A stretch of DNA of 64,000 nt from Oceanotoga teriensis (GTDB lineage: Bacteria; Thermotogota; Thermotogae; Petrotogales; Petrotogaceae): contig NZ_QGGI01000012.1 in the NCBI RefSeq assembly GCF_003148465.1, positions 1-64,000 on the forward strand, in the 5' to 3' direction. Below are positions 9,102 through 34,549 of the stretch, in pieces (the first letter of the stretch is position 1; every line of letters begins with the position of its first letter). The translations under genes and the position numbers were made by a program. A model generated the notes under the pieces. That model saw nothing but the letters and a program-made list of their open reading frames with translations, had not been told where the DNA came from and did no database searches.

Positions 9102-9131
9102 TTGACACTATTAATTTTATTATGCTATAAT
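9102..9131 (+). promoter_or_regulatory. Consensus sigma-70-type promoter for rpmE
   Basis: TTGACA at 9102-9107 and TATAAT at 9126-9131 have 18-base spacing. It stands 37 bases before the rpmE start codon. Confidence 0.88.
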
Positions 9132-9167: not shown

Positions 9168-9380
9168 ATGAAAAATGGAATACATCCTGAAATGAAACTC
9201 ATAACTGTTAAATGTGCTTGTGGTGCTGAACACAAGATTTATTCTACAGTTGATTCATTCAGATTGGATGTTTGCTCAGAATGTCACCCTTTCTATAAAG
9301 GTGAAGGTGCTGGACTACTTGATACTGAAGGAAGAATTCAGAAATTCAATAACAGATATAAAAACTTCCTCAAGAAGTAA
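9168..9380 (+). CDS. rpmE: 50S ribosomal protein L31
   Basis: Ribosomal protein L31, 70 residues, a component of the large subunit at the inter-subunit bridge. It is the zinc-type paralogue: Cys16 and Cys18 in KCACG, and Cys36 and Cys39 in [10 protein letters not shown], can bind Zn. The start MKNGIHPE is the conserved N terminus, with AAGAGGTGG upstream. It has its own strong promoter and a terminator seven bases after the stop, so its level can be set independently of the structured element and S1 gene that follow. Confidence 0.96.
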
Positions 9381-9387
9381 AAAAATA

Positions 9388-9416
9388 GGGGAGATATTAT
9401 CTCCCTTTGTTTTGTT
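9388..9416 (+). terminator. Intrinsic terminator after rpmE
   Basis: The arms AGGGGAGA and TCTCCCT close a five-base loop and are followed by TTTGTTTTGTTTT. Confidence 0.85.
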
Positions 9417-9444
9417 TTAAATTTTTAATTATTATAGATAAAAG

Positions 9445-9586
9445 TATCCAGGCGATTGGGCCTTGCATTTCAAGAAAAAGCTTGAATATCCAATCGTCAA
9501 AATAATTGGACTTTTCGGAGGTGAACACCATAGCCTGGGCCCGGGCCGCGAAATTGCGAAATCACGACTTTGCAAGGTTCTCGTGA
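9445..9586 (+). ncRNA. GC-rich structured RNA element of unknown family upstream of the S1-domain gene
   Basis: This non-coding stretch is strikingly GC-rich against AT-rich surroundings, as expected for structured RNA in such a genome. Complementary segments: CCAGG (9448-9452) with CCTGG (9534-9538); CGATTGG (9453-9459) with CCAATCG (9490-9496); TTCAAG (9469-9474) with CTTGAA (9481-9486); CACGA (9563-9567) with TCGTG (9581-9585). CCTTGCA (9461-9467) is also perfectly complementary to TGCAAGG (9571-9577), which would make a pseudoknot or an alternative fold. I do not recognise it as SRP RNA, tmRNA, 6S, RNase P or a known riboswitch. It may be a leader controlling the S1 gene or a separate small RNA. 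Confidence 0.6.
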
Positions 9587-9615
9587 AAAATCATTAGAAG
9601 GGCAGGGGTATTTAA

Positions 9616-9993
9616 GTGAGCGAAAGTATTGCCCAAGGTTCTTTTGTTAACGCCAAAGTTGTTGATATCAAAAAATTTGGTGCTTTTGTAGAGATTGAAT
9701 CAGGTGAAGAGGGATTTATTCATATTTCTAAGGTTTCTAAGAAATATGTTAAAGACGTGACTGACTTTTTAAAAGTAGGACAAGAGATTACAGGTAAAGT
9801 TATCGGTAAAACTAAAGATGGTAAATATGAGTTATCATTAAGGGAAGGCGACTCTAAATCTACAAGTGATGAAGGGGCAGCTAATTCAGAAAATTTTGAA
9901 AAGAAATTAACACGCTTTTTAAAAGATTCTGATAGAAAAATTTCTGAATACAGAAAACATTTAGATAAAAAAAGAAAGTCTAGAAGAAGATAA
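9616..9993 (+). CDS. S1 RNA-binding domain protein, YugI-like
   Basis: Small RNA-binding protein of 125 residues. An S1 (OB-fold) domain fills residues 5-80, with the motifs GAFVEIESGEEGFIHISKVS and GKVIGKTKDGKYELSLRE. A basic tail follows, ending KKRKSRRR, which should favour RNA or ribosome binding. Similar proteins (general stress protein 13 or YugI) associate with ribosomes. The start is GTG, with AGGGG about ten bases upstream. It follows the structured GC-rich RNA element and ends at its own terminator, so control through that leader is plausible. Confidence 0.85.
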   Translation: MSESIAQGSFVNAKVVDIKKFGAFVEIESGEEGFIHISKVSKKYVKDVTDFLKVGQEITGKVIGKTKDGKYELSLREGDSKSTSDEGAANSENFEKKLTRFLKDSDRKISEYRKHLDKKRKSRRR

Positions 9994-34378: not shown

Positions 34379-34389
34379 TTTTTCAGGAA

Positions 34390-34549
34390 AAGTTAATAAT
34401 GTCGTACCTAAGACAGTAGGTTATATTGAAATCAATATATTAAAGATGCCTGCCGAGGTGCGTGGAGAAAAGAGACAAGTTTTTTGTTGTCTATGTTCCG
34501 CGACCCTCATTTAGTCGTGGAATTTTTTTATTTAAGGAGGTGCATTGAG
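34390..34549 (+). ncRNA. L10 leader, autoregulatory RNA of the rplJL operon
   Basis: The interval between rplA and rplJ has the L10 leader landmarks: AAGACAGTAGG near 34410, and TGCCTGCCGAGGTGCGTGGA near 34446, which with neighbouring sequence form the kink-turn region bound by L10(L12)4. A terminator-like hairpin follows and the rplJ ribosome binding site closes the element. Excess L10 complex would bind and reduce expression. Confidence 0.88.
34496..34529 (+). terminator. Intrinsic attenuator at the end of the L10 leader
   Basis: TTCCGCGAC and GTCGTGGAA form a nine-pair stem (one G-U) around a nine-base loop and are followed at once by seven T. It ends 20 bases before the rplJ start, so the leader can act by premature termination. 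Confidence 0.86.

Follow-up and report, generated by a model that had tools for sequence, protein, structure and literature searches.

Comparison among relatives shows that an RNA element of about 140 bases, lying upstream of a gene for a small S1-domain protein, adopts a conserved fold in the 64-kb stretch of DNA analysed here (the window). Helix P1 encloses P2, three small hairpins and P3 follow, and a CCUUGC/GCAAGG pairing is present in every aligned copy. The element is very probably a cis-acting translational leader, judging from sequence comparison. Our best guess, evenly balanced, is a structured 5′ cis leader that sets translation of the YabR/GSP13-like S1-domain protein, including feedback by that product. 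We file the element as a previously unlisted family of structured translational leaders, which resembles the rpsA and rpsO leaders in its possible working and is a member of neither. A covariation-backed, lineage-restricted RNA family, found in seven of eight genera of one Thermotogota family, is thereby added to the translational leaders. The locus contains the following features.

9168–9380, + strand: rpmE (bL31), upstream of the S1 gene in all relatives
9387–9417, + strand: rpmE terminator hairpin with a T-rich tail
9449–9586, + strand: conserved RNA element, matching covariance model R1 with 128 bits; a single copy in each of 14 genomes from the window's own family
9600–9608, + strand: weak Shine–Dalgarno (SD) region GGGCAGGGG of the S1 gene, complementary to the CCTTGC arm (SD −8.3, arm:SD −10.2 kcal/mol)
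9616–9993, + strand: S1-domain gene, 125 residues, GTG start, one S1 domain (Pfam S1, E 2.7e-14)

Conserved fold of the element

The interval is conspicuously GC-rich, as the initial annotation had stated. Its G+C content is 48% at 9449–9586 versus 26% across the window, and only 0.28% of 138-nt windows are equally rich. The folding energy of the single sequence is ordinary (z = −0.87), so the case for an RNA is built on comparison and not on energy. The alignment contains 31 G-U cells against 6 A-C cells, which assigns the RNA to the + strand.

The fold was scored over 13 distinct copies and comprises 40 pairs: P1 (9 bp), P2 (8), hairpins A, B and C, P3 (6), and a six-pair CCUUGC/GCAAGG pseudoknot. 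Its parts are located in the window as follows.

9451–9459, + strand: 5′ strand of P1, GGCGATTGG, partner 9490–9498; nine of nine pairs changed on both sides
9461–9466, + strand: pseudoknot or switch arm CCTTGC (seventh base A9467), a 5′-side bulge between P1 and P2; partner 9572–9577 in 13 of 13 copies, SD alternative in 12 of 13
9469–9486, + strand: P2 hairpin, TTCAAG...CTTGAA; eight of eight pairs covary in the family
9490–9498, + strand: 3′ strand of P1, CCAATCGTC, paired by comparison with 9451–9459
9499–9516, + strand: unpaired A/U-rich linker, variable in sequence and length, 75–100% A/U in every copy; a possible S1-domain contact
9517–9524, + strand: invariant GGAGGTGA, fully complementary to the 3′ end of the 16S rRNA of this genome (TCACCTCC); no conserved start codon follows
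9520–9529, + strand: small hairpin A, GGT-GAAC-ACC, near-invariant across copies, leaving covariation nothing to score
9533–9546, + strand: hairpin B, GCC...GGC with a conserved GGNCC core, in 12 of 13 copies (absent in copy L007)
9547–9558, + strand: hairpin C, CGC...GCG in the window, variable in sequence and length; double changes at four of five model pairs
9562–9586, + strand: P3 hairpin, TCACGA...TCGTGA, with TGCAAGG (9571–9577) in its loop; paired in 97% of cells, with both bases changed at one pair
9572–9577, + strand: GCAAGG of the P3 loop, the pseudoknot partner of the CCTTGC arm at 9461–9466

Under this fold, 96.7% of the cells in the 13 copies are paired, and the paired fraction falls to 28–45% when partners are slid. 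In this alignment, which was fitted to a covariance model and is biased toward the structure, both bases have changed at 23 of the 40 pairs, versus 12.8 ± 2.0 in shuffles (0 of 500 as high). A MAFFT alignment of nine copies that predates any model gives the same picture, with 20 of 40 pairs double-changed and again no equal among 500 shuffles. Nearly all of the covariation resides in P1, P2 and hairpin C. The pseudoknot is paired in all copies and is nearly invariant. Five of its pairs are constant and the sixth shows a compensatory change from C-G to U-A in L007, which makes the pseudoknot a well conserved but not a proven pairing.

Most of the pairings proposed in the initial annotation are real. 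The seven-pair helix CGATTGG/CCAATCG extends to the nine pairs of P1, with a compensatory change at each, and the inner hairpin corresponds to P2, covarying throughout. In the 3′ hairpin TCACGA/TCGTGA, each pair is broken in at most one copy. The match CCTTGC(A)/(T)GCAAGG survives among relatives as its six-pair core. The closing helix CCAGG/CCTGG, on the other hand, is present only in the window sequence: its CCAGG side is unconserved among relatives, and CCTGG is part of a conserved hairpin. Two conserved segments had been overlooked, namely the invariant GGAGGTGA at 9517–9524 and the core GCCNGGNCC at 9533–9541. The unpaired core as a whole, GGAGGUGA..CC..GCCNGGNCC plus CUUNNCAAGGUU, is nearly invariant among copies.

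Over the element, no family of Rfam 15 is matched at its gathering threshold. Lax thresholds yield no credible match for the window copy and six other copies, and the riboswitch families of Rfam show no similarity. A search of the open literature, mostly outside subscription papers, found no description of the element. An Rfam search and covariation in relatives had been named at the outset as checks on the idea of a functional, pseudoknot-capable RNA outside the known families; strong covariation and the negative Rfam result both support it.

Several identities can be dismissed. SRP RNA, tmRNA and RNase P RNA are all found elsewhere in the genome. The 6S model RF00013 is unmatched anywhere in the genome, the element included, and the fold differs from the long-hairpin fold of 6S RNA. 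Mimicry of 16S rRNA by sequence was also rejected, as the real similarity scores fall within the shuffled ones. By eye, GGUGAA..CCCGGACC of the element resembles the conserved 1375–1400 region of 16S. Separately, the search of the whole genome (G000) for 6S RNA was negative and a control search also missed the 6S RNA of Thermotoga maritima; Thermotogota 6S RNA may lie beyond the reach of the Rfam model.

Distribution and gene context

Covariance model R1 was built from nine copies and searched against 103 Thermotogota genomes. Fourteen genomes each yield exactly one strong match, and the others yield none. These 14 genomes represent seven of the eight genera of the window's own family, and the four copies that lay outside the model (in genera g4, g7 and g8) are recovered with E values of 1.8e-25, 1.7e-22 and 2.5e-16/3.4e-18. 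The next-best matches in the phylum have E values of 0.05–0.9, and those examined do not lie near an S1 gene. A scan with a stringent pattern over 84,980 genomes, from which near relatives were possibly omitted, returned three members of the same group, together with a match in Hyphomicrobium that the covariance model does not support. No copy was found in viral contigs.

In all 14 genomes, the element lies between rpmE and the S1-domain gene, which starts about 30–40 nt after it (30 nt in the window). Across the order, the S1 gene itself is found in 38 of 38 genomes. The eighth genus, g5, and the sister family carry a short rpmE–S1 spacer in place of the RNA, 65–84 nt in the examined loci including the first codons, and the rpmE–S1 linkage is equally conserved in the genera without the RNA. 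The next gene after the S1 gene is hisS. Genus g5 (loci L014–L021), where the RNA is absent, shows a strong SD ahead of the S1 gene and, unlike the RNA-bearing genera, no hisS within about 1.5 kb after it.

The S1 gene is not rpsA, whose bS1 product has six domains versus one here. The nearest NCBIfam models of its product are PRK08582 (YabR), PRK05807 and PRK08059, along with CvfD. All scores fall under the curated cut-offs (for example, 90.8 versus 171), making the product a relative and not a confirmed member.

The placement of the element after the rpmE terminator, asserted initially, is correct for the window genome and fails in some relatives. In L018, the gap from the rpmE stop to P1 measures only some 25 nt, which leaves no room for a promoter. 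Between the element and the start codon no terminator is present in the window (9418 to 9616), and reading of the other leaders revealed none before the S1 start codon; the arrangement that defines a transcription attenuator, a terminator between aptamer and start codon, is thus missing. Without a terminator and with so short a spacer in L018, control would most simply act at translation. Likewise, the constant single copy, the fixed linkage and the lack of a terminator before the start codon point to a cis-acting translational leader.

Two further features of the region were observed. A perfect sigma-70 promoter precedes rpmE at 9102–9131 of the window (TTGACA, 18 nt, TATAAT, with TG before the −10). 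About 20 nt past the rpmE stop, genera g2, g3 and g6 (L003–L011) share a conserved tract of six to seven G residues, for example TTTAGGGGGGATTT, with no obvious rpmE terminator.

Shine–Dalgarno strength and competing pairings

The SD of the S1 gene is weak where the RNA is present. Its pairing with the anti-SD amounts to −6.7 to −8.7 kcal/mol in genomes with the RNA, versus −10.2 to −10.7 kcal/mol in relatives without it; the median over genes of the window is −9.8 kcal/mol. In most copies the SD region reads GGGCRRGG and is complementary to the arm CCUUGC/U. The pairing of CCUUGC with the SD reaches −7.5 kcal/mol or lower in 12 of 13 leaders and −10 or lower in 10 of 13, but these leaders are related by descent and not independent, and the match in six of seven genera is a small sample. 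Among window genes, 2 of 55 reach −10 kcal/mol with the arm, one possibly being the S1 gene itself.

The arm therefore has two potential partners of overlapping strength, with energies across copies of −7.8 to −11.6 kcal/mol for the P3 loop and −4.6 to −12.1 kcal/mol for the SD. The weakest SD pairing, −4.6 kcal/mol, belongs to L018. In 12 of 13 copies, imposing the conserved fold leaves the SD unpaired more often. In unconstrained folds, the partner of the SD varies by copy among hairpin B, P2, the linker and the coding region. Because of these varying partners, and because L018 lacks the arm:SD match, we treat a switch as hypothetical. The initial annotation had offered a pseudoknot or a switch arm as alternatives. 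Both may be right, since the CCUUGC arm can pair with the SD as well as with the P3 loop. Overall, control of the S1 gene at the level of translation is supported by the absence of a terminator, by an SD that is weak only where the RNA is present, and by the two possible pairings of the arm.

The invariant GGAGGUGA, present in 13 of 13 copies, is an exact complement of the 16S 3′ end (−15 kcal/mol). An upstream open reading frame following it was rejected, as there is no conserved start codon and indels break every frame. The segment may be a docking site for the 30S subunit inside the leader. Complementarity to the 16S 3′ end with no start codon behind it makes such docking a serious rival to feedback by the S1-domain protein, or a part of the same mechanism.

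Candidate modes of control

Feedback by the product of the downstream gene is plausible, though slightly short of an even chance. In such a mechanism, which we favour among the candidates, the signal would be the S1-domain protein itself. Protein made beyond the capacity of its ribosomal sites would bind the A/U-rich linker or the pseudoknot. Once bound, it would block or remodel the leader and outcompete the 30S subunit at the weak SD, resulting in negative feedback as on rpsA mRNA. The CCUUGC arm would leave the SD free when placed on the P3 loop, and mask it when placed on the SD. A more specific proposal, which we consider rather doubtful, is that the arm alternates between the SD copy in the P3 loop and the true SD, and that its state is read by the 30S-bound S1-domain protein or by a 30S subunit docked on GGAGGUGA, an 'SD without a start codon'. 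We know of no earlier autoregulatory leader for a YabR/GSP13-type protein, and the alternating-arm switch, if true, would be the first. A leader that senses small 30S-bound S1-domain proteins would provide a direct handle on when and why such proteins are made.

Alternatively, the leader may be controlled by 30S subunits or by another ribosomal protein, such as bL31 or S18/S6 near the anti-SD, with GGAGGUGA capturing the 30S subunit and the supply of ribosomes or of the ribosomal protein setting access to the weak SD. We consider this unlikely. The invariance of GGAGGUGA and its strong complementarity to the 16S 3′ end, in front of no conserved start codon, speak for 30S capture, but a tertiary core could instead explain the invariance. 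Constant adjacency to rpmE, with a spacer in L018 too small for a separate promoter, also fits, as does the position of YabR: both YabR and YugI are 30S-binding proteins, and YabR sits near S18/S6 (PMC10090944). The rpmE–S1 linkage is, however, just as conserved where the RNA is missing, and the element follows rpmE rather than preceding it; both points count against this reading.

The remaining three readings, a thermosensor, a small-molecule aptamer and a free-standing RNA, have a lower probability. A temperature or stress switch comparable to cold-shock mRNA leaders, in which the balance between the pseudoknot and the CCUUGC:SD pairing would shift with temperature and tune a stress-type S1-domain (OB-fold) protein, is improbable. 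The two competing pairings do have similar predicted energies, and relatives of the GSP13/CvfD type are named post-transcriptional regulators. The highly conserved unpaired core (GCCNGGNCC, CUUNNCAAGGUU), however, resembles a binding site that a simple thermosensor would not need, and the alternative pairing is not kept in L018. An invariant junction core, variable covarying helices and a pseudoknot would suit the aptamer of a new riboswitch controlling the S1 gene. Against this very improbable reading, the element serves one gene only, in the same context in every genome and with no metabolic link, and resembles no riboswitch family in Rfam. Least probable of all is a small RNA that stands upstream of the S1 gene by chance. 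Its position behind the rpmE terminator in the window genome, where the Rfam model finds no 6S RNA, would allow a free-standing transcript; but in every copy the element stops a short way upstream of the start codon, no terminator follows P3, the same gene is always linked, and the SD differs with the presence of the RNA. A leader acting in cis is preferred to a free-standing RNA, since the same S1 gene accompanies each copy and SRP RNA, tmRNA and RNase P RNA are accounted for at other loci.

The proposed leader shares features with several known systems. Bacterial S1 (bS1) competes with the 30S subunit on a structured, weak-SD leader and so represses its own mRNA; repression disappears with a canonical SD, and bS1 binds pseudoknots with high affinity (PMC10931766). 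Like the rpsA translation initiation region of γ-proteobacteria, the present leader is structured, contains A/U-rich single strands and a weak SD, and precedes an S1-domain gene. It differs in encoding a single S1 domain (125 residues) in place of six, in its conserved pseudoknot and covarying helices with no Rfam match, and in that own-product feedback is here a proposal. The S15/rpsO, S4/alpha operon and L20 leaders similarly place a long-range pseudoknot near the translation start in the mRNA of a ribosomal RNA-binding protein (PMC10931766). The element has no covariance-model match to them, and its pseudoknot lies upstream of the SD without embracing it, save in the alternative pairing. 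With YabR, YugI (GSP13) and CvfD of Firmicutes, the gene product shares one S1 domain and a basic tail, although its family scores lie under the curated cut-offs. The L10 leader (RF00557) belongs to a separate family that the element does not match; it is a known, structured ribosomal protein leader in the same genome, located at 34389–34538 of the window (65 bits).
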